Origin: Aldrovandia affinis
Taxonomy: Eukaryota > Chordata > Actinopteri > Notacanthiformes > Halosauridae
Length of the DNA: 64,000 bases
Assembly: GCA_029706075.1 (NCBI GenBank)
Contig: JAINUG010000114.1
Coordinates: 2,170,001 to 2,234,000, forward strand
Reading direction: 5' to 3'
The notes beneath the pieces are model-generated. The model was not told the origin of the DNA. It did not search any database and saw nothing but the letters and a program-made list of their open reading frames with translations. Made by a program: the position numbers and the translations under genes. Shown here piece after piece: positions 7,961 through 63,510 of this stretch; within the stretch, counting starts at the first letter, position 1; each line of letters begins with the position of its first letter.

Positions 7961-9053
7961 CCATGTGCAGGTCACATAATCTCTCTGTATGCATGTATTC
8001 TGTGGAGATCAATTGGACCTGCTGTATGGTAAGGTAATGTGGTATCACTAGTATTATAAGACTGATTTCCCAGGTCAGGAAACCTGTGCCCAATGGCCTA
8101 TTGGCTTAAAGGGAAATCTGTAAACTGTAAAGGAAAATGAATTTAAATTTCAATGGCTAAAGACAGGTTCACATGACATGTGTGACAGCAAGTAATGTAA
8201 CTTGGTTTGCAGTGTGTTTAATAATTGTGTTGAGCATCATAACAGTGACGAACAGTTCAAGGAATGTTTGGGCTAGTCCACAGATATGGGCTCTATTATA
8301 ACAAGTAAATTAGTGGTCATAACTTGACAAACTGCCTGCCCATTGGGAATTAATTTTGTACCTTTGAAGTACATACATCTACCTGTACAGTTCTGACAAG
8401 TCCACCTATTGGGTATGTGCCAGAAGAAAAAGATTAACTCTCAGTAGATAGATTATTTTTTTAGTTCATAGAGTTAGAGTCTTAGTTAATGTAGTTTAGA
8501 TTAGTTCATGGTTGGATTGTTTTTATTTTTGAACTATGGACATAAACAACCATAATTACCACAAATTATTACCACTAATAGTGCTGTGTGGCCTGTGGTT
8601 TGGAAAATATTCACTGGGTCGGAGGAGAGCATGAAATTCAGCTGCAGTGCTCTTGCATGTGAGTTGGCAGTAGAGTGGTGACTTGAGAAGGACAATTGCT
8701 GATTCCAAAGTTTTCTTGGAATAGCAAACTTTCCATAGGAACAGGGACAAGACATTCCAGGAGATCTGTATGGATATGCAGTTGTGTATTCAGTTTAGCT
8801 GTACATATTTTGCAGGTGTTTCTCAGACCTGATGTTGCAGCTGCTTTCAGTTGGTTTGCAAAGAAGGTTAATTTGGGGATTAAGGTTCAGTTTCATCAAA
8901 CATAGAATTTAATAGGATTTTTGAAAAATCCAGATCTTTCATTAACATAACAATTGATAGTGTTACTTTGCGATGGAAGTAGTGGGTGTAGAACTAATTC
9001 ATGGATTAACCTGATAAAGTAAGGATCCAGCGAAAGTTAGGATCATTGGTATA
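7961..9053. other. No gene seen
   Basis: AT-rich, no recognisable coding segment or repeat family. Short reading frames near 8534-8905 overlap on both strands without any conserved motif. Confidence 0.55.
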
Positions 9054-9055
9054 TA

Positions 9056-10308
9056 CAATGGGGGAAATAAGTATTGAACACATCAACATTTTGTCCAGTA
9101 AATGTATTTCCAATGAGCCTATTGACTGGGCCATTCCAACAAGTTGATTTTCTTTCTCTGAAACCAATTGTGAGTTTCCTTTGCTGTATGCTTTGGATCG
9201 TTGTCCTGCTGGAAGGTCCACCAACATCTCATCCTCAGCATCCTGGTGGATGGCAGCAGGTTCATCTCAAGAATCTCTCTGTACATGGCTCCATTCATTG
9301 TTCCTTCATTGATATGAAGTCTTCCAGTACCACGAGAGGAGAAACAGCCCCACATCATGATACTTCCACCTCCAAACTTCACTGTTGGTATAGTGTTATT
9401 CGGGTGATGTGCAGTGCCATTTCTCCTCCAAACATGGTGTGTTGTGTGACAGCCAAAAAGTTCAATTTTGGTCTCATCTGACCAGAGTACATGCTCCCAG
9501 TAGTTCACTGGCTTGTCCAAATGTTGTTTGCCAAACTTTAAATGAGCTTCAACATGTCTTTTTTCAGTAGTGGAGTCTTGCGGGCTGAGCGTGCACAGAG
9601 GCCATGGCGGTGGAGTGCATTGCCTACTGTCCTTTCTGTCACAGTTGTACCTGCTGCCTCCAAGTCTTTCTGGAGCTCTTTCCTAGTGGTCCTTGGCTCT
9701 TTGGCTACTCTTCTAAGTATCCTTCTGACTCCCTGATCAGAAATTTTGCAAGGAGCTCCTGTGCGTGGCCGGTTGATGGTGGAGTGATGTTGCTTCCACT
9801 TACGGATAATGCCCCCAATGGTGCTTACTGGAAGATTCAGAAGTTGTGAAATACGTCTGTAGCCAATTCCATTTTCATGTTTTGCAACAATCTGGTTGTG
9901 AAGGTCTTGAGAGAGCTCTTTGCTTTTACCCATCATTAGATGTTTCTTGTGTGGCACCTTGGTAACAAAAAAAACCTTTTATATCAATATATTCTAACCC
10001 AGCTGACATTAATTAGCACAGATTGGAGGTAGAGTTGCCTCCTAATTAGTTATGGTTTTCAGCTGGTTCCTTGCCTTTCCTTGCTGTGGTGTACTGCTTT
10101 TTCTTAGCGTGTTCAATACTTTTTTCCTGTTTCATTCCACTTTATTACACATAACTTTATTTACATATGGACTTGAATGTTTAGATTTTTTTGTCTGGAT
10201 TTTTTGAGTTAATACCAAAATCTGGTGCAAATTTCACTTGAATAGGCTCATTGGAAATACATTTACTGGACAAAATGTTGATGTGTTCAATACTTATTTC
10301 CCCCATTG
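9056..10308 (-). mobile_element. Tc1-like transposon with TA duplication, C-terminus deleted
   Basis: The ends read CAATGGGGGAAATAAGTATT at 9056 and its inverse at 10308, flanked by TA (9054-9055 and 10309-10310). The terminal inverted repeats extend for about 70 bp (9056-9124 and 10240-10308). The transposase lies on the minus strand. The sequence jumps directly from the end of the QQDNDPKH region into the terminal repeat, so this is an internal deletion derivative that could move only with help from a complete relative. Confidence 0.92.
9119..9933 (-). pseudogene. Tc1-like transposase, frameshifted and truncated
   Basis: Translation most likely starts at [19 protein letters not shown] (9933). 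Two N-terminal helix-turn-helix domains follow ([19 protein letters not shown], then the [14 protein letters not shown] region). A frameshift near 9525-9540 separates them from the catalytic part. That part has the first Asp in [12 protein letters not shown] and the second in [11 protein letters not shown]. It ends WPSQ at the terminal repeat, so the third catalytic residue (in SPDLNPIE in relatives) and about 70 further residues are missing. It cannot be a working transposase. Confidence 0.9.
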
Positions 10309-10514
10309 TAAATATAGACATATATGTATGTAAGCAATAAACCATGACAAGCTGTGCATTCTTAGGATATATACACATTCCTGGGGTGATGTGAGGATGA
10401 GGATGAAAAGTCTTGCTAGAAAAGTTTACCACTAGCTAGCTAGCACTACTCCCAACTTGTTCAGCTAAGGTATGGTCCATTTCCAGCAGAATTTGCTCAA
10501 TATCTCAATATCAA

Positions 10515-20840: not shown

Positions 20841-21012
20841 TATCTGGGGTACATTTAATTACATTTCACTGTGATCAGAAATTACTGGAACTAATTATTA
20901 ATTGAAAAAATACAAGGATGCATAAAAATAAGAATGGGATTTTTTTTTTAAAAATTTTATGCGCAAGGCTTTTGTCCTTTTAGTGGTGCAGCTTAGCTAG
21001 AAATTCCATAAG

Positions 21013-21145
21013 GATTGTGCATTTTGTGATAAAAGCATGAAATTTGGTACACATATAGTTAAAGGCATTCCAAAAAGATTTAGATGTGGAGCCATCATGA
21101 ATTTTCAATATGTCGCCTATGGCAACCAAAATGGCCGCCATTGGT
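21013..21145 (-). repeat. Inverted copy of the 148-bp unit
   Basis: Its reverse complement follows the array unit through GGCCATTTTGGTTGCCATAG, ATTGAAAATTCATGATGGCT and TTTTTGGAATGCCTTTAACT to GCTTTTATCACAAAATGCAC with scattered substitutions. It is a single copy about 2.3 kb from the array. Confidence 0.85.
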
Positions 21146-21809
21146 CACTATTGATAATTTTTTCTGATAAATGTTCTTATCAGGGATGGAAATGTAATGA
21201 TATTGAGGACATAAGCTCAATTTATCTAGTATACATAGTTCTTATTAATTGACATTTGGATAATACAATTTTCAAGATGGCGGCCATGACTGGTATGACA
21301 ATTGTAATTGCAATAAAGTTGCATAGATTATTTTGATATGGATGATCTCGGGGTCAAATTATACATAGGCCTACAATTTTATGATTCAGACTTCAAATTT
21401 GCAACTATAGAATTACAGAGAAGCTGCATTTTATCATATAATTCAAGAAGATCTTTTTTTATGTGGCGGCCAACATAGAAATTGTAATTCCAATAAAATA
21501 ACACGAAAGTCCAATAAACTCACAAGTCTGCAAAATGAAGAATAATTACTGTACATGTGGCTATGTTTTACAGAAAATAGTACAGTAATAGAGTGGATGT
21601 CGAAGCACAGCCAGGGCACACTGGTGACACCACTGCTGTGAAACTCAGCATGGGGTTCAGTGTCAGCTAAATACACTCTACTTTATGCTTTCTGTATCTG
21701 CATGCTGTGATAGTTTAGTAGTAGTGTAGTTTAGTTTCCTAAATGCTATCTAATTTTAGCCCCACATCTACAGTAGTTAATATTATGCATATTTAGATGT
21801 AGTTAGATA

Positions 21810-22105
21810 GCCGGTCGGCACGATGACCTGCTTACCATCGTGAAAAAGCGAAAACTGAGGTGGTATGGACACATCACCAGATCATCAGGCCTGGCAAAGA
21901 CCATCCTGCAAGGCACTGTGCAAGGAGGCAGGAAACGGGGGAGACAAAAGAAAAGATGGGAGGATAACATCCAAGAATGGACTCAATTAAGACTGAGTGA
22001 AACATAGCTGCCGAGGACAGAGAGAGAGATGGAGGGGGCTTGTTGACAGATCGTCTGTGGTGCCCCAACGACCCTCCGGGGTTATGGGATAGGAAGGAAG
22101 GAAGA
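21810..22105 (+). pseudogene. LINE reverse-transcriptase C-terminal fragment
   Basis: The frame reads VKKRKLRWYGHITRSSGLAK, then GGRKRGRQKKRWEDNIQEW and RERWRGLVDRSSVVPQRP before a stop. This RxRWYGH ... GRxxKRW ... RW pattern is the standard C-terminal end of a group of animal non-LTR elements. It is followed by short GGAA repeats (22088-22104), a likely tail. Only the last 90 codons remain, inserted inside the larger element. Confidence 0.75.
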
Positions 22106-22394
22106 TAGCCGCACCTGAATTGACAGGATGTGCCAGCGCGGGAGAGCCGAGCCAAGGGTAACGGGGCTTTACATGACTTTCATATAGTTACCCAGATGGT
22201 GCACAGATCGCACAGGAATTAAATGGCATTGGATGAACGATCGGGCTAGGTGTAGGTTAACTTTCACATCCGAACCTAGTTGTATCCCATACCTGAATGT
22301 GTTTCTCTAAGAAAGAAAAGAAAGGAAAGTGAAGAAGGTAAAATAGGTAAAAGGAGATCCCTTCTGCCTTTACTGTAAGACATTATCAAAGAAA

Positions 22395-23087
22395 ATGTCA
22401 AAGAATTTCAAACTTGTGGAACTTGATGGTCAAGGACCATCAACTTCTTGCCCAGACAAGACTGACTGGAAGCTCTGTATTATATGCCAATAGCAAAAAG
22501 CAGAGGCATTGACATGTTCTTTGCAGTGCACGCGAACAGACAAGGGGAGTGGATACAGTTCAATTGCAGAGCATTTGATCCAGTTCAAAGAACTTGGCCA
22601 GCTCCCTTCAACATTTACACTTGAAAGACTAGATGAGGGCCATGGTATTGAAGCAGCCATGGTTGCAAACAAAGCTCAATACCACAAAACATGTAAGCTC
22701 AAGTACAATGCAACCAAGCTCCAAAGAGCACAAAAGCGAGTACTGGGAACAGATAGTGAAAGTCCTGACCCACAGACAGACTGCAAGCGCACAAGGTCCC
22801 AATCATCAAGTACTTCTGAAATGAGACAAGACACCTGCTTCTTCTGCGGAGAGCCTGCTGGCCATGATGTCCTTCATGAAGCTGCAACATTTAAGTTGGA
22901 CCAACGGGTGCGCAAAAGTGCAACCCTTCTTCAAGACACAGAACTACTACGGCGACTTAGTGCCGGGGACATGGTGGCCACTGAAGCAAAGTATCACACC
23001 AAATGCCTAGTACGTCTGTACAATAATATAAAAAAGAATCGGGCGAGACAAAGACAGCCTCTAAAAAAATATATAACAAAAAAATAA
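22395..23087 (+). pseudogene. Two-module Cys/His protein of an uncharacterised repeat family
   Basis: Starting at ATG 22395 the frame has two similar modules. Module one runs from CIIC (residues 28-31) to YHKTC; module two runs from CFFC to YHTKC. Each spans about 60-90 residues and ends in a basic stretch, a pattern suggesting paired zinc-binding folds. A single TAG at 22491-22493 replaces the codon after CIICQ. The C-terminus is cut off by a 41-bp duplication and A/T-rich insert (23022-23154). Proteins with this pair (also the GSGYSSIAE and RLSAGDMVA blocks) are, to my knowledge, multi-copy in fish and invertebrates and poorly described. Role unknown; I infer DNA binding for a mobile element. 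Confidence 0.6.
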
Positions 23088-23154
23088 AATAAAAATAATA
23101 AAATAATAATAAAAATAATATAAAAAAGAATCGGGGGAGACAAAGACAGCCTCT
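23022..23154. repeat. 41-bp direct repeat around A/T-rich insert
   Basis: Two 41-bp copies, 23022-23062 and 23114-23154, differ at one base and flank a 51-bp A/T-only stretch. The event breaks the C-terminus of the zinc-module frame. It resembles either a replication slippage product or an insertion with a long target duplication. Confidence 0.85.
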
Positions 23155-23413
23155 ACGTGGCCTCCCCTACGAGTAACTTAAAGGCCCAAAAGCGTACAAA
23201 AGTGAAACTAATGTCTTTAACACATCTGCAGACCGCAAAAAGCCAAGCTGGTTTAGCACTACTGCAGCTCAACATTGAAGGCCTTCACGCTGCTAAGGTC
23301 AATGTTATCAAACAGATTGCCGGACCTGGACAATGACACAGTAGCCTGGCTCACCTCAAACGAACAGCAGGTCTAAAAGGCGTACGACAGAAGAAGAAAA
23401 TTGATAAGAAAAC

Positions 23414-24321
23414 AGTTGTCACTGGTGCCCACTGGCGGCCATTTTGAAAAAATGGTTGCATGGGTGACATATTGAAAATTCATGAAGACTCAACAACCAA
23501 ATCTTTTTGGAATGGCTTTGGCTACATGTGTACCAAATTTGATGCTTTTATCATTAAAAAAATGCACAATCGTTGTGGTCATCTGGTGGCCATTTTGAAA
23601 AAATGGTTGCCATGGGCGACATATTGAAAATTCATGATGACTCAATATCCAAATCTTTTTGGAATGTCTTTGGCTACATGTGTACCAAATTTGATGCTTT
23701 TATCAGAAAAAACACAATCGTTGTGGTCATCTGGTGGCCATTTTGAAAAAATGGTTGCCATGGGCGACACATTGAAAATCCATGATGGCTCCACATCCAA
23801 ATCTTTTTGGAATGTCTTTGGCTACATGTGTACCAAATTTGATGCTTTTATCAGAAAAACACAATCGTTGTGGTCATCTGGTGGCCATTTTGAAAAATGG
23901 TTGCCATGGGCGACACATTGAAAATTCATGATGGCTCCACATCCAAATCTTTTTGGAATGTCTTTGGCTACATGTGTACCAAATTTGATGCTTTTATCAC
24001 AAAATGCACAATCATTGTGGTTATCTGGTGGCCATTTTGAAAAAATGGTTGCCATGGGCGACACATTGAAAATTCATGATGGCTCCACATCCAAATCTTT
24101 TTGGAATGTCTTTGGCTACATGTGTACCAAATTTGATGCTTTTATCAGAAAAAACACAATCGTTGTGGTCATCTGGTGGCCATTTTGAAAAAATGGTTGC
24201 CATGGGCGACACATTGAAAATTCATGATGGCTCCACATCCAAATCTTTTTGGAATGTCTTTGGCTACATGTGTACCAAATTTGATGCTTTTATCACAAAA
24301 TGCACAATCATTGTGGTTATC
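23414..24321 (+). repeat. 148-bp tandem array, about six units
   Basis: The GGTGGCC anchor recurs at 23434, 23585, 23733, 23880, 24027 and 24175, spacing 147-151 bp. Two unit variants exist: one with AGAAAAAACACAATCGTTG, one with CACAAAATGCACAATCATTG. In the last four units they alternate, giving a 295-bp higher-order period. The last unit stops at ATCTG followed by unique sequence. Antiparallel frames in the array are chance by-products. Confidence 0.95.
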
Positions 24322-24946
24322 TGCCCCACTATTTATACTATTTGAAAATAAGACAAATGAACTGTCTGATGCACTCCTGCCTGGCAATATTTGCCTGGAA
24401 AGCGAGTGTCGATGAGGATTAAATCCATTTATACAGTATTTGTGTGGGAGAAAAGCTGCACAGATTGTGGACTTCTACTTGTGAGCCATTGGACAGGAGA
24501 TTCATGCAAAGAAGCTTGCTGGGAATACTGTATGTATCACACTTTGTTTGCCAACAAATAAATTAATTACATTTTATTGCAGGAGCACTGCATAGTTCTG
24601 TTAAATATTAATGTGTTCCTCACATTCTTAAAATAAGTATCATTTTCACACACTGACTTTCCAAAATGTACTGTGTACTGGTATTAAACCAAAATAGTGA
24701 AGGAATGAGCAATCTGTATGAAATGGTTCGATACAGCGCTAAAAAAATCTATGAAAACATAAATGCAGATTATGTGTGTCACAATGCCAGGGAAGGGATG
24801 TGGACATGTGACCGTGAGCGAGACAAATCATGCAATGAAAATGAAAATAAAGGAGAAAAAATAACAACACCAATAAAAGACTAAAGGAAAAAATGATCCT
24901 GTTCTGTGAATTCTTAAATGTTCTTGTTTAATTCAAGAATATCTCT
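24322..24946. other. No gene seen
   Basis: AT-rich. A short frame at 24666-24884 has no recognisable domain. Confidence 0.55.
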
Positions 24947-29887: not shown

Positions 29888-29985
29888 CAACATTTTTTAC
29901 ATTTTAAGCATTTAGCAGACGCTCTTATCCAGAGCGACTTACAAGATGTGCATTAATACATGGTAGGAACAAACAGTTTGTTCAA
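29888..29985 (-). mobile_element. L2 LINE 3' end
   Basis: The sequence GCATTTAGCAGACGCTCTTA, TCCAGAGCGACTTACAAGAT, GTGCATTAATACATGGTAGG matches the 3' end of the L2 copy at 48199 onwards almost exactly. Only about 90 bp of 3' sequence remain. Confidence 0.8.
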
Positions 29986-37159: not shown

Positions 37160-38549
37160 GGTGCTGTCACGCTAAAATGTGTCCGGGTGCCAAAATGTGT
37201 CCGGGTGACGTCATCGGAATTTTGGACTGTAGTTGCTATGCCAACATGACGAGCGACAAACGAGTGACAAAACCCGGAAGAATGTGTCCAGGGTGTCCGG
37301 GTGATGTCATTTAGCTACCAATAAGCTGTACAGCTAAGTTAGCTGCCTTGCTACGAACATAATTTATGAATTATAATATATAATTATATTATAATTATAT
37401 AGCCAGCTAGCTATGAAGATAATAAAATGCATTGTCTGTTCAGCTGTACAGTTAAGTTAGATGGCTAGCTACGAATATAATATATGGAAGTCATTACATT
37501 ACAGCTAGGTGGCTAGCTACGAATAATCATTGCTTGCTCAGCTGTAAAACTAGCTAGCTGGCTAGCTACGAACATAATAATATGCATTGTCTTTTCAGCT
37601 GTACAGTTAAGTTAGCTGGCTAGCTACAAATATAATATATGGAAGTCATTACATTACAGCTAGGTGGCTAGCTACGAATAACCATTGCTTGCTCAGCTGT
37701 AAAACTAGCTAGTTGGCTAGCTACGAACATAATAATATGCATTGTCTGTTCAGCTGTACAGTTAAGTTAGCTGGCTAGCTACGAATATAATATATGGAAG
37801 TCATTACATTACAGCTAGGTGGCTAGCTATGAATAACCATTGCTTGCTCAGCTGTAAAACTAGCTAGCTGGCTAGCTACAAAGATAATAATATGCATTGT
37901 CTGTTCAGATGTACAGCTAAGTTAGCTGCCTAGCTATGAATAAAATATATGGATCGCCTGCTTAGTTGGCTAGTGAAATACTTGCTAGTGAAATAAAAAT
38001 TGTGTCGTCGGAGACAGATCACTACATCAGATAACCTTTATAATTTCCTTTTTTATAGGCTACTGTGCTTATATTGTGTCTGAACAGACAATGCATATTA
38101 TTATCTTCGTAGCTAGCTGGCTATATAATTCATATATTATGTTCGTAGCTAGCCAGTTAGCTAGTTTTACAGCTGAGCAAGCAATGGTTATTTGTAGCTA
38201 GCCACCTAGCTGTAATATAATGACTTCCATATATTATATTTGTAGCTAGCCAGCTAACTTAACTGTACAGCTGAACAGACAATGCATATTATTATCTTCG
38301 TAGCTAGCTAGCTATATAATTATAATATAATTATATATTATAATTCATATATTATGTTCGTAGCAAGGCAGCTAACTTAGCTGTACAGCTTATTCGTAGC
38401 TAAATGACATCACCCGGACACATTCTTCCGGGTTTTGTCACTCAGGAATGCGAGCTCATCATGTTGGCATAGCAACTACAGTCCAAAATTCCAATGACAT
38501 CATCCGGACACATTATTTTCAGGCGGACACATTTCAGCATGACAGTGCC
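37160..38549. mobile_element. 1.39-kb foldback element with 155-bp internal repeats
   Basis: The left end GGTGCTGTCACGCTAAAATG and the inverse of the right end (GGCACTGTCATGCTGAAATG) pair. Pairing continues inward through GGAATTTTGGACTGTAGTTG, TGCCAACATGA, AACCCGGAAGAATGTGTCC and the AGCTAGCT-rich region, about 500-600 bp per arm. The spacer lies near 37990-38080. The left arm holds three 155-bp units (anchor ATTGTCT at 37431, 37586, 37741, 37896); the right arm has fewer. A 3-bp ACT flanks both ends. No coding capacity. Confidence 0.85.
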
Positions 38550-38924: not shown

Positions 38925-39158
38925 TTTACATTTTACATTTTAGGCATTTAGCAGACGCTCTTATCCAGAGCGACTTACAGAGTTTACATTTCTTTACATA
39001 CAATCCATTTATATAGCTAGATATTTTACTGAAGCAATTCAGGTTAAGTACCTTGCTCAAGGGTACAACAGCAGTGCCCCACCTGGGAATTTAACCTGCA
39101 ACCTCTGAGTTACAAGCCCAGCTCCCTAACCATTACACTACACTGCCAGCTATAACAG
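38925..39158 (-). mobile_element. tRNA-derived SINE with L2-type tail
   Basis: In minus orientation: GCTGGCAGTGTAGTGTAATG then GTTAGGGAGC (box A), AGAGGTTGCAGGTTAAATTC (box B), the body GGGGCACTGCTGTTGTACCC and ACCTGAATTGCTTCAGTAAA, and the tail GTAAGTCGCTCTGGATAAGA followed by GCGTCTGCTAAATGCC and (AAAATGT)n. The tail is the same as the 3' end of the L2 at 48199-51141, the pairing expected when a SINE borrows LINE machinery. Confidence 0.9.
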
Positions 39159-48198: not shown

Positions 48199-51141
48199 CA
48201 TTTACATTTTACATTTTACATTTTACGCATTTAGCAGACGCTCTTATCCAGAGCGACTTACAAGATGTGCATCAATACATGGTAGGAGCAATCACAGTTA
48301 GCGCACGAGATCAGTGCAGGAATACAGCAATAGACATCATTGCAGGCATCTGCGTACCATACCTGTAACACCGGGAAGGAAAAGGTATTTTACAATGTTT
48401 ACAAAATGTACATTTTTTTTATTTTTTTTATAAGAGTATAGTGTTGAACAAGTAGACAGTGGTGAAGACAATTTAGCTAGATGGACAGAGATCAGGGGTA
48501 GTGGAGTCTGAAGAGGTGGGTTTTGAGTCTCTTGCGGAAGATTGGAAGTGATTCCGCAGTCCTGACCAATTGCGGGAGGTCGTTCCACCAACGAGGGACC
48601 AGGACAGAGAAGAGGCGAGACCGCGAGGAGCGGCTGCCAGGCGCCCGGAGGGATGGGGCAGTCAGTCTGCCAGCGGAGGCGGAGCGGAGAGGTCTGGACG
48701 GGGTGTAGGGCGTGATGAGTGACTGGAGGTATGGGGAGCAGTACCTCTGGCCGCTTGAAAAGCAAGCACCAGTGACTTGAATCTGATGCGTGCTGCGATG
48801 GGGAGCCAGTGCAGAGAGGAGAGTAGAGGGGTGACGTGGGTGAACTTCGGCTGGTTGAACACCAGGCGAGCAGCAGCGTTCTGGACTAGTTGCAGTGGCT
48901 TGATGGCACAGGCCGGAAGGCCTGCCAGCAAGGAGTTGCAGTAGTCCAGACGTGAGATCACCAGGGCCTGGACCAGGAGTTGAGTGGCCTCTTGGGTGAG
49001 GAACGGTCGGATCCTCCGGATGTTGTGGAGGGAGAAACGGCAGGTCCGAGTGATCGCTGCAATATGGCTTGAGAAGCACAGCTGGTTGTCCAGGGTTACC
49101 CCAAGACTCCTGGCAGACTGGGACGGAGACACTATGGAGCCTTCCACGGTGATTGATGCATCAATCGTCGGGGAGCCCTTCGCTGGGAGGAAGAGCAGCT
49201 CTGTCTTCCCCAGGTTCAGCTTCAGGTGGTGGGTGGACATCCATGCGGAGATGTCAGCCAGGCATGCAGAGATCCGTGCGGGACCTGGGTATCAGATGGA
49301 GGAAGGAGAGAAACAGTTGAGTGTCATCAGCATAACAGTGATAGGAAAAACCATGAGCAGAAATAACAGAACCAAGTGACTTGGTGTACAGAGAAAATAG
49401 GACAGGGCCTAGCACCGAGCCCTGCGGGACACCAGTAGAGAGGGCGGCGAGAGGAGAGAGGGATCCTCTCCAGGCCACCTGGTAGGACCGGTCAGCCAGG
49501 TAGGACTCAAACCATGTCAACACAGATCCAGAGATTCCCATCTCGACGAGAGATGAGAGCAGGATCCGGTGGTCCACGGTGTCGAATGCTGCCGACAGGT
49601 CGAGGAGAAGGAGGACGGAGCTAAGGGATCGGGACTTAGCGACGTGAAGAGCCTCTGTGACCGCAAGGAGAGCAGTCTCTGTGGAGTGGCCTGCTCTGAA
49701 CCCAGATTGGTTAGGATCAAGCAGGTCGTTCTGTGAGAGATGAGCAGACAGTTGATTATAGACAGCCCGCTCTAACGTTTTGGAGAGGAATGGGAGGAGA
49801 GAGACAGGTCGGTAGTTAGAGATGACAGCAGGATTCAGAGAGGGTTTTTTGAGGAGGGGGACAACCTGAGCGCATTTGAGGGAGGAGGGGACAGAGCCAG
49901 AGGACAGAGAGGAGTTAATGACATTAGAGACAAAGGGGAGGATGTCCATAGCAATGGACTGGAAGAGGGGGAAGGAATGGGATCAAGAGGGCAGGTGGTG
50001 GGACGGTGGGGAGAGAACAAGTTGAAGGATGTCAGAGTCAGGGAGGGGTGAGAAGGAGGACAGAGGAGTGGGAGGTTTAGGTAGCGGGATGGGAGAGGGA
50101 GAGGTTGGGGGGAAGGAGTTGCGAATGACCTCAACCTTCTCGTGAAAAGAAGGATGAGAAGTCATCGGCGGTTATAGAGGAGGGGGTGGGGGAGGAGGAG
50201 GGGTGAGGAGAGAGGAAAATGTAGCATAGAGTTTACGTGGGTTGGAAACAGAGGATTGTATCTTAGAAAGGAAGAATGCAGACTTAGCAGAGGAGAGGTT
50301 AGCGGAGAAGGAAGCCAGGAGTGTGTGGAAGTCAGACAGAGCTGCAGGGGATTTGGATTTTCTCCATTTCCTTTCTGCCGCACGCAGCTTCAGTCGGTTA
50401 GCCCGAATGGAATCGGTTAGCCAGGGGGCGGGGGGCGGAGACGAGCGGGTTTAGCGGATAGAGGACAGAGTAAGTCAAAGGAGGAGGAGAGAGAGGAAAG
50501 TAGGGTGGATGATGCTACTTCAGCAGGTAGCTGAGAGAAGGCATCAGTAGGGGGAAGGGAAGATAGGACAGTAGCTGACAGGGCAGCGGGTGAGAGAGTG
50601 CGGAGGTTGCGACGGACAAGGACAGTGGGAGCAGGTGAAGATGGTTTAGGGACAGAGGGGAGGGGGAGGGAGAAAGACAGAAAGGAATGGTCAGACACAT
50701 GTAGAGGCGATACCGTAATGTTGGGTGAGGCACAGTTCCTGGTGAAGACCAGGTCCAGTTGGTTACCGGCCTTGTGGGTGGATGGGGATTCAGCCATGGT
50801 GAAGTCAAAGGACTGAAGCAGGGGGAGGAATGCAGAGGTCTGGGAGGACTCTAGCTGCAGGTTGAAGTCCCCGAGGAGTAAGACGGGAGTGCCATCCTCA
50901 GGGAAGGCACTGAGTAGGGCATCCATCTCATCTAGGAAACTCCCCAGTGGACCTGGAGGGCGGTAAAGAACAATGATGTGCAGTTTACATGGAACAGTGA
51001 CAGTGACAGCATGAAATTCAAAGGAGGAGGGGGAGAAGTGAGGAAGAGGAACAATACCAAATCTCCACAGGGGGGAGATCAGTATACCTGTCCCTCCACC
51101 TCTACCTGAGGGTCGTGGAGTGTGGGAGAAGGTGTAGGCTA
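48199..51141 (-). mobile_element. L2 LINE, 2.9 kb, well preserved
   Basis: The 3' end (low coordinates) reads GTAAGTCGCTCTGGATAAGA then GCGTCTGCTAAATGCG and (TAAAATG)n. The 5' end is truncated at 51141. A 5-bp duplication GAATG flanks it (48194-48198 and 51142-51146). It contains most of ORF2 with only a few frameshifts. It is higher in GC than its surroundings. Confidence 0.93.
48380..51120 (-). pseudogene. L2 ORF2: endonuclease and reverse transcriptase, few lesions
   Basis: Minus-strand order: endonuclease with ALLSAFPEDGTPVLLLGDFN (GDFN, catalytic Asp) and LDLVFTRN, then VSDHSFLSF (SDH), ending at a stop near 50417. A linker follows. The reverse transcriptase (49949-49254) has NYRPVSLLPFLSKTLERAVY, QSGFRAGHSTETALL, DLSAAFDTVDH (motif A), STGVPQGSVLGP (motif B) and CYADDTQLF (motif C, YADD at 49334-49323). 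A frameshift then leads to LKLNLGKTELLFLP, the thumb and C-terminal SRLDYCNSLLAG and SLHWLPIAARI. All catalytic residues are present. Frameshifts near 49300, 48660 and about 50420-50170 stop translation of a full protein. Confidence 0.88.
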
Positions 51142-52525
51142 GAATGGAGTACTATTTGCTCAAAAGCTCAAACACAAACGATTAATACTAGACTTCGATT
51201 AACACAATTTAACTGGATAATGAGAACTTATATTTCTCCGGAAAAGTTGAACAAATTTGATCCTAATATCCCAGACCAGTGCTATAAGTGTAATACTAAC
51301 TTAGGTACTTTACACCATTGCATGTGGGAATGTGTTGAAATTAAAAAGTTTTGGAACTCAATAGTACGGTATATCTCACAGCTCACATCTACTCCAATAA
51401 CATTGAATCCTAAATTGTGCATTTTGGGCCTTTATCCATCTAACCTCTCTTTGTCTAAAACAGAGCGAAAAATGGTTGACCTCTGCTTACTGCAAGCTAG
51501 ACGCTTGATTGCTCTATATTGGAAGAATACTAGTCCCCTCTCTCTTGCTCAGTGGCTGAAAGAACTATCAGGTAACTTGGCCCTTGAGAAACTCACTTAC
51601 TCAGTGAAAGGTAAATCATCTGAATTCTATAACATTTGGGAGATGTTTGGGGATTTTGTAAGAAATTATAACATTGATGAAGCATTAGAATCCTAAACTG
51701 CTAGGATTGTATCATTCAATATTCAATGCAACAATGTATAGGGGGCTATTTAATGCTTTACTGTACTGTATTTAATTTATTATTATTGAATTGTCTTTTC
51801 TTTTCTTTTCTTGTTTTTCTTTTTTTTTTCTTTTAAATTATTATTATTATTTTTTTATTTTTGTAGTGCCAACTATTTTAAGGGGGGAAGGGTTTAATTA
51901 CTGTGGTGTTGTGCAGCTGTTACACACTTGTTTTGTTCCCAAGCTTGTGTTTTGTATACTGTATAAAACCAATAAAAATATGTTAAAAAAAAAAAGGAAA
52001 AAAAAAGAACACCAGTCGCTAATGCCACCTGCGGGCACCCGTCAGAGCTTCACTGATACACAGTGCAATGAGCACACGCTGCACAAGTCAAACATAAATA
52101 TCCGTGTAGAAAATAAATAGCATTAACCGTCGTATCTATCTTTGGGCTACATACAGTACGACGTAGTGATCGCATTTTCAAAGATGTGGAGATTTATTGA
52201 GGGTGCAAGTCCACCCCCACTAAAAAGGCTAAAACCAAAGAAGATCAGCTAAAAACTCAGCGAAAATGTGATTCAGAGAACAGTGATCACACTTTCCAGG
52301 AAAGTTGGAAGGTGAATAGACTAAGGACAAGTAACTTTTAGGAAGGACAAGTATCTTTTCTAAGATACTTGCCCTTTGACAAGTATGACTTTTACCCCTG
52401 AATCTATGTGTGACAGTTGTCACCAGAGAGAGAATGAAGGTATGTACTGTAGAACTGTATGTGTAAGAGGTGTTCCTATAGAGGGAGGGAGACAGCAGGA
52501 GTGTGTGTGTTTCAGTAAACTATGT

Positions 52526-59187: not shown

Positions 59188-60058
59188 CACTACCGGTCAA
59201 AAGTTAAGTCCAGTGAATAACCTGAAATGGTATGAAGGTAAGTGGTAAACTGCCAGAGGTATAAAAAAAAAGTTTAGGTTACCAAAAACTGAAAAATAAT
59301 GTACATTTCAGAGTTATAAAAAAAGGTCCTTTTCAGGGAACAAGTAATGGGTTAACGTGGGTTAACAGTCACTCTGTGCAAGTCGTCGACTCTGGATCCA
59401 GCAAAAGAGCCCCAGACCATCATGCTTCCTCCTCCATGTTTGGCAGTTGGTGTCATACACTGAGGAACCACCCTTTTGCCTACTCGACGGCCTACAAAAA
59501 CCTTTCAAACTATCAAGATTTCACATTTTGATTCATCGGTCCATCAGACCTTCTTCCAGTCTTCAGTAGTCCACTGGCGGTGCTTCATAGTCCAGGCAAG
59601 CCTCTTTTTCTTATTTTGCCATCTTAGCAATGCCTTTCTTACTGCCACTCAACCTGTCAAACCTGCAGCTCAAAGTTTTCTCTTCACAGTTGAAACTGAG
59701 ACTTCCTTACTTCGACCAGTGTTAAGCTGTGCTTGAAGCTGTTGTGCTGTGAGCCACCTATCACGCAAGCTGTTGACTCTCAGAAACTTGTCTTCTGATT
59801 TTGTTGTGGCTTTGGATCTGATAGGCCTCTTCCTGTCAGAGTTTCCTCCAGTTTCCAAGTGCCTTTTGATGGTGTAGGAAACTACTCACAGGCAAAAAAA
59901 ACATAATTTTTTGGTAACCTAAACTTTTTATTTTATTTTACCTCTGGCAGTTTACCGCTTACCTTTGTACCATTTCAGCTTATTCACTGGACTTGAACTG
60001 CTTAAATTTCAGTAAAAACTGGAAAATGGGGGTGTTCTAAAACTTTTGACCGGTAGTG
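59188..60058 (-). mobile_element. Tc1-like transposon, deletion derivative
   Basis: Both ends read CACTACCGGTCAAAAGTT (inverted), flanked by TA (59186-59187 and 60059-60060). The minus strand carries the DNA-binding part of a transposase (RKRPIRSKATTKSEDKFLR, LQAQLNTGRSKEVSVSTVKR) and a stretch with WTDESK, the first catalytic Asp. The rest of the catalytic domain is replaced by the terminal region. It shares this structure with the next copy. Confidence 0.9.
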
Positions 60059-60915
60059 TATTACCGATGTGGGGTAATTGCAGAGAGAAAACTCTGATTG
60101 ATTGTGGTTTTATTCACTACAAGAGAGACATCCCAGATCATTCTTACCGGGAACCTCTGAGGAGCTGAAGTAATGCAACTTTTAATTGGATAAAGGGTTT
60201 GAGTGACCCCCTTTTAAGCCTGCTAACACATATTATCATGTGAAATTTAATGTTTCCATGGTTACATACATTTCCTTGCATGAAGGGGCTTCCTCTGGCC
60301 TGCATCGCTGGCTTCCTCTGCTCAGCAGGCCGGTCCATTATGGGTTAAACCATCCAGACGGATGATAAATCTCCTCCCACTATTTATTTCCTCTTACATT
60401 TTTAATGGTGATGGCCTTGTGAAACAGATGGTGCATTAGCTGTAATAAACTATGGCTGACATCAGAGCTTTTCAATCCAGCTAAGCTAGGTTTTTTTATT
60501 TATTTATTGGATACATTGGTATTGTACTGTATGATTCTGTCTCTTAACTGAGGAAAACTGATCTCACAATTGGTTTCTGAGACAAACAAAAAAAACACAT
60601 TTCGCTTGCAGCTTAAATAGATTTTCTGTGCATGTCAAAGTGTTCCCTTATAACAGTCTTGACTTTTTTCCCCTAAAAATAACCTTAGAGAAGGTTTTGG
60701 AGAACATAGCATATTATAAATGCAATCAAATCCAATACGTTTGCTGAGAGATAGGTTAATGCTGAGCTGGTAATGTAGCCTAAATTCCAGCAGATCAGTG
60801 GTTAGACTGTGTACAAGTACCATTTCCCACACCCTTCTTTGTGTCACTTTAGCACTCTACATCTGCACCAACATTCCCAGGCATCCTCCCCAATCTCACA
60901 TCTCCCACACAAACA
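60059..60915. other. No gene seen; possible conserved non-coding DNA
   Basis: The stretch 60140-60480 is free of repeats, has AATTA/TAAT-type sites and a TTAATTGGATAAAGGG block. This is suggestive only. Confidence 0.4.
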
Positions 60916-60917
60916 TA

Positions 60918-61630
60918 CACTACCGGTCAAAAGTTTCCAGTTTTCCAGTTTTTACTGAAATTTAAGCAGTTCAAGTCCAGTGAATAACCTGAAATAGTAC
61001 AAAGGTAAGCGGTAAACTGCCAGAGGTTAAAAAAAAAAGTTTAGGTTAGCAAAAACTTTTTTTGGCAGTGAGTAGTTTCCTACACCATAAAAAGGCACTT
61101 GGAAACTGGAGGAAACTCTGACAGGAAGAGGTCTGGCAGAACGAAAGCCACAACAAAATCAGAAGACAAGTTTCTGAGAGTCAACAGCTTGCGTGATAGG
61201 CGGCTCACAGGACAACAGCTTCAAGCACAGCTTAACACTGGTCGAATTAAGTCTCAGTTTCAACTGTGAAGAGAAGACTTCGAGCTGCAGATTTGACAGG
61301 TCGAGTGGCAGTAAGAAAGCCATTGCTAATATGGCAAAATAAGAAAAAGAGGCTTGCCAGGGCCATGAAGCACCGCCAATGGACTACTGAATACTGGAAG
61401 AAGTTCCAAAATCTTCGGTTCATAACGCAGGGTTTTTGTATGCTGTCGAGTAGGCGAAAGGATGGTTCCTCAGTGTGTGACACCCACTGTCAAACATGGA
61501 GAAAGAAGCGTGATGGTCTGGGGCTTTTGCTGGATCCAGAGTTGGCGACTTGCACAGAGTGACTGTTAACCCATTACTTGTTCCCTGAAAAGGGCCTTTT
61601 TTTATAACTCTGAAATTGACATTATTTTTC
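60918..61630 (+). mobile_element. Tc1-like transposon, same subfamily, right end missing
   Basis: The left end CACTACCGGTCAAAAGTT (after TA at 60916-60917) and the following 650 bp match the minus strand of the 59188-60058 copy. Broken transposase blocks include RRLRAADLTGRVAVRKPL, KKRLARAMKHRQWTTEYW and a damaged CDTHCQTWRKK region. The first catalytic Asp is lost in a small deletion. After TTTTTTTATAACTCTGAAAT it runs into unique sequence, without a right terminal repeat. Confidence 0.85.
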
Positions 61631-63510
61631 ATTATTTGTCATTCCTGCATAATGACAGTTGCACTTATTCTTTCAATATAAATGTGGATTTTAGACATTT
61701 TTCGTAAATCACCTAATGTAACCATTTCCAGTTGTAATTCTAGTCATGCTGAATACAGCAGTAGCTGAAACATGTAAGCCACATGAGAAAATAATTCAAA
61801 CTTCCAATGAGACCAATACGGTAGATTTGTCATCTGCAATGGAAAAATACTGCCGGTGACAATGCAGAACATATTTGCTGATGAAATAGAAAACTTTTCG
61901 ACATTTACCGTCTACCACAGCGGTACATGACCTACATGTAAGCAATAGAGGTAAATACTTGCTGTTTCTTAATCATAAGTAACACACATCTATTCACAAT
62001 ATTTTTTTAAATGCATATCAATGAAGTACAACACTAAAATAAACCCAAAGTTCATTATTCTGTAAATCCACAACACTGATTTTTCTAACCCTGGTATAGA
62101 CACATTTCCATAAACTTAACCACCTTTGTTTGCCTTCAATATGCTCTGTTGTGCTTTAAGTAGTAGTACGTCAGGAAAACCCCCCAGAATAATCTCCAAA
62201 TAAACATGCAGGTTGTAAAGCACATCTGTTCCTGTGTGTTTACACTGGATTAAACTCGCCATTTGTGATTTTCCATTTGAATGCTTGGACATGGGGATCT
62301 CCATTTAAAAAGGCATCACTGTGTTTTCTCAATATCACTCCAAATGAATTGTGACAGCTGTTGAAGTGTGCACTGGGCAGAGAATATCCTGTGTTCATGT
62401 GTAATGATGATGATTAGGGAGCTGAACAGTGACAGGTTTAGCAGGATTCTCTGTTTGGTGTGTGGAGATTAAAAGTATACTGCATATGCCTCTGGGCACA
62501 TAAACTGGGCATTTTCATGCAGCATATCCAGGAAACCTCTGTACATGGGCATAGTGGGAGGGAAGAATTTTTGTTGTTGTTTTTGTTTTAGAAAATTCGA
62601 AATAATTATATTCTTGATCTATCATATGAATTTGATAATAATTGCATTTCATCATAAGGCTTGATCTGTTTGTCTCTGCATTTCTGTATGTGCACACACA
62701 CATGTGTGTGCTATTAACACATTTGATCATATATATATATATATTTGTACATATGTAACATCTTTAATTTTGTACTGCAAGTGTCAGTTATCTTTACATT
62801 AGTCATTACAGCTGGCAGATATTTTTTGGTGAGTGACTCACCAAAAAAACAAAAAGTTAATATGAAATGCATGGGCGTTTTCTTTGACGACTGAGAGCCT
62901 CGACAGCTCATTGACACTTATGCTGCTTGTGGTGACAAAACAATAGAAGCCAGCATCAGGGCTCACTAATGGATTTTTTGTAAGAATGAATAAATAAATT
63001 GAAGGTGATGGATGCACTGTTTTAATTTTTGGCATCAAGGTTGTATTGATTTTAAAGAGTGAACACATTCATTTACAGTATGCACTCAGAGACTCTCTCA
63101 CACACAGACGGTGCAGAAATGAAGACCAAAAATAAGGAATAAGAAATCCAGATTAATATAAATATAGTTCAATATAAGCAAAAATGAGGGTATCTGCTGA
63201 CAAAGCAATGTGAGTGAACATGCACAGGTCTCACGGCAAAGAGTAGGATCAAATCACATATAATAAATATACATAAACATGTAATAGGCACACAGTATAC
63301 AAAACCATCTTGATATATATAAATATTTGCTGAATCAGCATTTCAGTTTGAGAATGAGCATATTTCATAGCCAGATGTATAACGGCTACAGTCCTGTCTG
63401 CCAGGAGAGCTACCATAAAACATTTTCAGAAACGAAATCTAAGCACATACTGATCTCCATTAATGCAAGTGAGCCGTTTTCACAAGTGCTCAGGTCAAGG
63501 TGCAGTGACC
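61631..63510. other. No gene seen
   Basis: AT-rich with an (AT)n run at 62731-62745. No coding, SINE or terminal-repeat signal. Confidence 0.55.

Follow-up and report, generated by a model that had tools for sequence, protein, structure and literature searches.

One-sided tandem amplification of a terminal inverted repeat in a DNA transposon family of the halosaurid fish Aldrovandia affinis

Tandem repeats with a single inverted counterpart on the far side of a gene raise the question of whether repeats and gene belong together in one mobile element and, if they do, of what kind that element is. Such an arrangement is found in the genome of the halosaurid fish Aldrovandia affinis, within a window of 64,000 nucleotides (assembly GCA_029706075.1, contig JAINUG010000114.1, positions 2,170,001 to 2,234,000 of the forward strand), to which coordinates refer below unless another locus is named. 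The original prediction, made from the letters alone, had described about six 148-bp units in tandem, one inverted unit about 2.3 kb away and an enclosed gene for two Cys/His modules, and had proposed a DNA transposon of unclassified type with satellite-forming ends. We hold with high confidence that a recently active transposon family is represented at 20981-24331 by a non-autonomous copy with an internal deletion, that the right terminal inverted repeat (TIR) of this family has been tandemly amplified and that the gene corresponds to the N-terminal part of a protein encoded by the element itself.

Anatomy of the element and its copies in the host genome

The stretch 20981-24331 is a DNA transposon with TIRs and a 3-bp target-site duplication, TTT, at 20978-20980 and 24332-24334; its limits are slightly wider than the predicted 21011-24320. 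The left TIR (20981-21178, plus strand), which starts with TAGTGGTGCAG, is single and corresponds to the lone inverted 148-bp unit. The right TIR (23394-24331, plus strand) is tandemly amplified and comprises an inner TIR remnant (23394-23431), six 148-bp units (23432-24323) and the outer right terminus CTGCCCCACTA (24321-24331). Both the six tandem units and the inverted one (21006-21171) are confirmed: the array has a period of 148 bp, 6.0 copies and 95% matches (TRF), and the inverted copy at 21006-21128 shows a complementarity of 88-92% with units 2-6 (107-123 nt aligned) and of 86% with the first unit (100 nt aligned), stretching on to 21171-21178 at 79.6-84% with gaps. The outermost 11 bp of the two ends match with one mismatch, the TIR measures approximately 160-200 bp, and the termini of the family read TAGTGG...CCACTA.

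Between the TIRs lie the N-terminal protein fragment with its two Cys/His modules (22395-23024, plus strand) and a 3′ non-coding part joined on by internal deletion (23025-23393, plus strand). The remaining feature of the interior is a foreign insert of 289 bp (21814-22102, plus strand), not part of the element sequence, placed between the two copies of a 9-bp duplication, AGATAGCCG, at 21805-21813 and 22103-22111. The frame of this later insertion contains a reverse-transcriptase tail (LRWYGHITR...) together with GGAAG repeats, and on this basis the insert reads as a LINE 3′ end; it is missing in 14 of the 20 copies read, all 14 of which span its site. A scan of the window for RNA families gave four matches, none of them inside the element.

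Several other repeats are found in the same window. Three UnaL2 LINE 3′ elements are located on the minus strand (29902-29954, 38938-38991 and 48221-48274), the last of them near LINE-like frames at 48337-51151. The region 37164-38545 is fold-back-like, with 155-bp tandem units in 3.5 copies (37406-37953) and an inverted counterpart at 38127-38545, and the region 59283-61638 holds an inverted pair of approximately 780 bp (59283-60061 and 60915-61638) that is 86% identical. Within 9050-10314 a minus-strand frame (9119-9682), read as a Tc1-like transposase, adjoins a 74-bp inverted pair with 98.6% identity. The Tc1-like and LINE frames and the UnaL2 tails accord with a fish-like vertebrate host.

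The host assembly searched comprises 1.22 Gb in 2,576 contigs. The 148-bp unit gave at least 149 matches at 40 places, these being the best 40 of 110 candidates (best E value 3.8e-70), far more than chance would give. Twenty of these loci, all picked for having an array and hence representative of array-bearing copies only, were read; with the window they make 21 copies. Side and orientation of the single inverted unit agree in 19 of the 20 loci and in the window, and the 19 elements measure 1,711-5,893 bp; at the remaining locus, L014, no left end was present within the 9 kb of sequence examined. All 20 copies with both ends (the window counted) start with TAGTGGTGCAG and finish with CTGCCCCACTA. 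The constant target duplication for which the original prediction had proposed checking the flanks is indeed there: it is 3 bp long and exact in 19 of the 20 two-ended copies, with a sequence that varies between copies, the exception being L011, flanked by CCA and CAA. A 4-bp duplication was found in none of the 20.

Genome-wide, the left end occurs 53 times (49 perfect and 4 with one mismatch, in a pattern search allowing two) and the right end 50 times (a 21-base pattern, exact matches only). Pairing left with right ends yielded 45 elements of 1,302-5,893 bp (median 2,985 bp) and left 8 left and 5 right ends unpaired; at least 35 of the 45 carry arrays among the unit matches listed. The left 199 bp show 99-100% identity in each of the 40 copies scored (the best 40 of 163 candidates), and mean divergence across the 5′ 640 bp of 20 copies is 1.05%, values that indicate recent movement of the family.

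The tandem units are the right TIR duplicated in tandem, the left TIR having stayed single. The left TIR finds its counterpart in the last unit and the outer right terminus taken together, and its inner portion matches the first, partial unit, so that each unit equals the TIR minus its outermost approximately 10 bp; in L017, 17-19 of every 20 bases match per block between left and right ends from position 41 to 160. Repeats at the left end were found in none of the 20 copies with a left end, all repeats being right-sided. The number of units per array varies among the 21 copies: three copies have 2 units, ten have 3, one has 4, three have 5, three have 6 and one has 11. Between copies, the divergence is 0.7% for first units and 1.7% for last units, as against 7.4% between the first and the last unit of one copy; units are thus inherited by position. 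Judged from these divergences, the array predates the burst of copies and the unit number was altered afterwards.

A satellite-like tandem array of variable unit number might also be an independent satellite that the element, or its landing site, has picked up. We regard such an origin as extremely unlikely, because the unit is homologous to both the left TIR and the outer right terminus, the units are inherited by position, and in all 20 array loci read the array lies inside the element and ends in the same right terminus. The 21 arrays read hold 2-11 units, and no satellite arrays of kb size were seen among the best 40 of 110 candidates; long independent arrays may exist beyond these. The earlier proposal of one transposon with satellite-forming ends therefore holds as regards the single transposon, whereas the units prove to be its right TIR and not a separate satellite.

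The zinc-module gene as a fragment of a large protein

The open reading frame at 22494-23087 encodes 197 amino acids from stop to stop. The same frame has an upstream ATG at 22395, but a TAG at 22491-22493 intervenes, so the window copy of the gene is broken; its coding fragment ends at about 23022 through the internal deletion. Two modules are enclosed by the repeats, as predicted, but their motif reads CxxC...HxxC (YHKTC and YHTKC) and not CxxC...HxxxC, and the first CxxC precedes the TAG stop.

In relatives the fragment forms the first approximately 200 residues of a protein of approximately 1,500 amino acids, long frames of which are present in L014 (743 amino acids), L031 (1,164) and L035 (584, 732 and 170). 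The order of parts in this protein is two zinc modules, DDE-like motifs, a nuclease-like C-terminal region and a Cys-rich tail. Comparison with these frames identifies the zinc-module frame as the N-terminal portion of a large protein belonging to the element itself. The absence of a visible transposase, noted in the original prediction, is true of the window copy, the rest of whose own protein was lost by internal deletion; no intact full-length gene was found among the loci read.

Downstream of the zinc modules the motifs VDNID, DQPL and DQAHEQ look like a DDE catalytic set, judged by their appearance. In the C-terminal region E148, D150, D174, D176 and D234 are invariant in six of six aligned rows and are followed by a GKK motif and then by the Cys-rich tail. 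The acids D13, D56, E148, D150, D174, D176 and D234, then GKK (numbering of L030:4874-6106), stand in FEN1 order, the acids of FEN1 being catalytic. This resemblance to FEN1/XPG is a lead at the level of motifs only: alignment of the C-terminal region with the archaeal FEN1 profile (hhalign) gave no signal, scores in six settings being not above those of column shuffles, and the C-terminal profile found no XPG-type structure among solved structures. Searches of solved structures with the parts of the element's protein returned nothing significant. Pfam gave nothing for the C-terminal region, and for the other proteins scanned only sub-threshold matches with no transposase domain above the cut-offs; these included DUF6589 (E 0.03-0.13) and PHD_NSD on the second module (E 0.0037, below cut-off). 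Structure prediction of the window frame gave a mean pLDDT of 34.9 and a pTM of 0.21, values too low for a usable model. Neither the N-terminal nor the C-terminal part had a confirmed relative in viral contigs. In the host genome the N-terminal part has at least 150 protein matches (the best 150 of 252 candidates) and the C-terminal part at least 119 (the best 117 of 1,081 candidates scored), so the wider protein family is large there.

Host-genome protein searches also revealed a sister family (L029 and L030), with 59-60% protein identity in the N-terminal and 74% in the C-terminal part. Its element L030:997-6709 is 5.7 kb long and has TIRs of approximately 250 bp, one per end, with outer ends TAGTAGGGCAGC and TAGTGGGGCGGC similar to the termini of the window family and a 3-bp target duplication, AAG. 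Three overlapping frames across 1466-6106 of L030 extend from the zinc modules through the Cys tail. On both sides (L030 1-996 and 6710-8501) it is surrounded by a satellite of approximately 155 bp that bears no relation to the 148-bp unit. As the sister TIRs are single, the one-sided array looks derived; single TIRs are probably ancestral, to judge from this one complete sister element.

Deletion classes were determined for the 21 copies against two real reference pieces, which were kept separate. A break 979|2736 that joins the zinc modules to the C-terminal tail is common to 8 of the 21 (in L016 at 972), a 5′ break lies at 685 in four copies and at 718 in a fifth, and a break at 1429 is common to two, while L014, L025, L028 and the window each form a class of their own. 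In L018 and L019 (approximately 840-2000 of the element) the C-terminal coding piece is inverted, which makes them a rearranged derivative class. The zinc-module fragment is present in 12 of the 21 copies and missing in 9. Of the 45 paired elements, 17 or more contain it at 80% identity or above, and 7 of the 24 fragments of this kind lie outside paired elements, 5 of these 7 near one end. The original prediction would have been undermined by repeat and gene occurring independently at most loci: 28 of the 45 paired elements do lack the fragment at that identity among the matches listed, but the nine fragment-less copies that were read have the same two ends as the rest.

The fragment could instead be part of a separate accessory DNA-binding gene under selection, as the original prediction had considered, or the fusion frame of one deletion class could be a selected repressor. 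The zinc-module frame is open in short copies (300 amino acids in L010, 327 in L017 and 339 in L023), and the shared deletion of the eight copies fuses the zinc modules with the C-terminal tail, as a repressor of this kind would require. In relatives, however, the same modules open a single long protein, and the fragment is absent from nine of the copies. Across the 12 copies that carry it, the distinct variant codons comprise 3 synonymous, 11 non-synonymous and 2 stop changes, against shares of 0.28, 0.68 and 0.04 expected without selection, a few variants being possibly frameshift-derived. Codon changes so near the neutral expectation mark the window fragment as a decaying passenger, and together with the long proteins of relatives they make an accessory gene or repressor very unlikely.

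A complete gene with the ends of this family would need an estimated 7.5 kb or so, summed from L017, L030 and L014. The largest of the 45 paired elements does not exceed 5.9 kb, though a longer one may lie at one of the 13 unpaired ends. The helper that would supply the protein in trans may be a copy of about 7.5 kb, an unassembled or lost copy, or the sister family.

Superfamily and related repeat-bearing elements

By duplication length, size and motifs, set against published descriptions, the most likely superfamily is Academ, lineage AcademX, an assignment that we favor without regarding it as secure. AcademX elements are described as having 3- or 4-bp target-site duplications and encoding a nuclease (PMC10045372), curated bivalve Academ elements as being 5,565 bp long on average (PMC10294476), and Academ as recorded in teleosts (PMC4746887). 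The window family shares the 3-bp duplication (19 of 20 copies, and AAG in the sister element), the TIRs and, at motif level only, the nuclease-like region, and the 5.7 kb of the sister element compares with the bivalve mean. It differs in the tandemly amplified right TIR, and its nuclease homology is unsupported by profiles. The element is thus probably a new family within the AcademX type rather than the unclassified type of the original prediction; what is unusual about it is the amplification of a TIR on one side only and to variable length.

Target duplications of 3 bp occur also in PIF/Harbinger, CACTA/EnSpm and Zator, and sequence-based membership tests gave no success, so that one of these or an undescribed superfamily has some claim to the element; we consider this unlikely, though worth keeping in mind, and the anatomy would be unaffected by it. 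PIF/Harbinger elements duplicate TWA, whereas TAA or TTA targets were found at none of the 20 copies. CACTA/EnSpm termini are CACTA...TAGTG, the opposite of the TAGTG...CACTA of the window family. No Pfam DDE or other transposase domain exceeded the cut-offs in the proteins scanned. AcademX remains our preferred filing.

The one-sided array was further compared with known elements that carry tandem repeats. In Galileo, a Drosophila element of the P superfamily, the long TIRs contain tandem repeats that add binding sites for the transposase (PMC3688188, PMC3573991). The long, internally repetitive TIRs and the many structural variants are similar, whereas Galileo has a P-type transposase and the window family has repeats at one end only and a 3-bp target duplication; tandem repeats in the TIRs of both ends, the Galileo/Foldback feature, were not seen, the left TIR being single in 20 of 20 copies. 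In the foldback element Tetris (TIR-220) of D. virilis, repeats of approximately 220 bp have been proposed to stem from part of the TIR, with unequal crossing-over altering their number (PMC4079207). There, too, tandem repeats of variable number lie inside TIRs; the Tetris units, in contrast, have 37 bp in common with the TIR end, while here a unit takes in nearly all of the TIR, the units being confined to one end, and kb-size satellite arrays were absent among the matches listed. Oyster Helentron elements with satellite-like arrays (PMC7492417) likewise represent short tandem arrays dispersed by mobile elements. The window family differs from them in having TIRs and a target duplication. Helentrons are of the rolling-circle type.

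Putative mechanism and significance of the one-sided array

For this family it is predicted, from the sequence, that full-length protein supplied in trans would bind the TIR, cut both ends and join the element to the target with a 3-bp stagger. The array units may serve as extra binding sites for this protein: each added 148-bp unit would provide one more and, by the reasoning put forward for Galileo, the protein would be captured more readily by copies with arrays. Shifts in array length could result from slippage or unequal exchange between the units; the internal deletions may stem from interrupted gap repair. It is conceivable, though doubtful, that the one-sided array is adaptive, short passengers out-competing longer copies for the transposase of a related family with a success set by unit number. 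Were this so, the protein with its zinc modules, DDE-like motifs, nuclease-like region and Cys tail would be a poorly described type of transposase that tolerates strongly asymmetric ends.

No description of the window family was found in the literature searched, Repbase and Dfam lying outside that search. Set against Galileo and Tetris, the novelty lies in amplification confined to one end, with a variable number of units, and in units that comprise nearly all of the TIR. The family represents a clear case of satellite-like arrays born from transposon ends, and the same genome holds both a sister element whose TIRs are single and a family whose arrays number 2-11 units; the copies of the latter are approximately 1% apart, and their first and last units can be traced by position. 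The results indicate, moreover, that a set of uncharacterised Cys/His-module proteins, the fish and invertebrate family mentioned in the original prediction, belongs to transposons, a point of use in annotating genomes.
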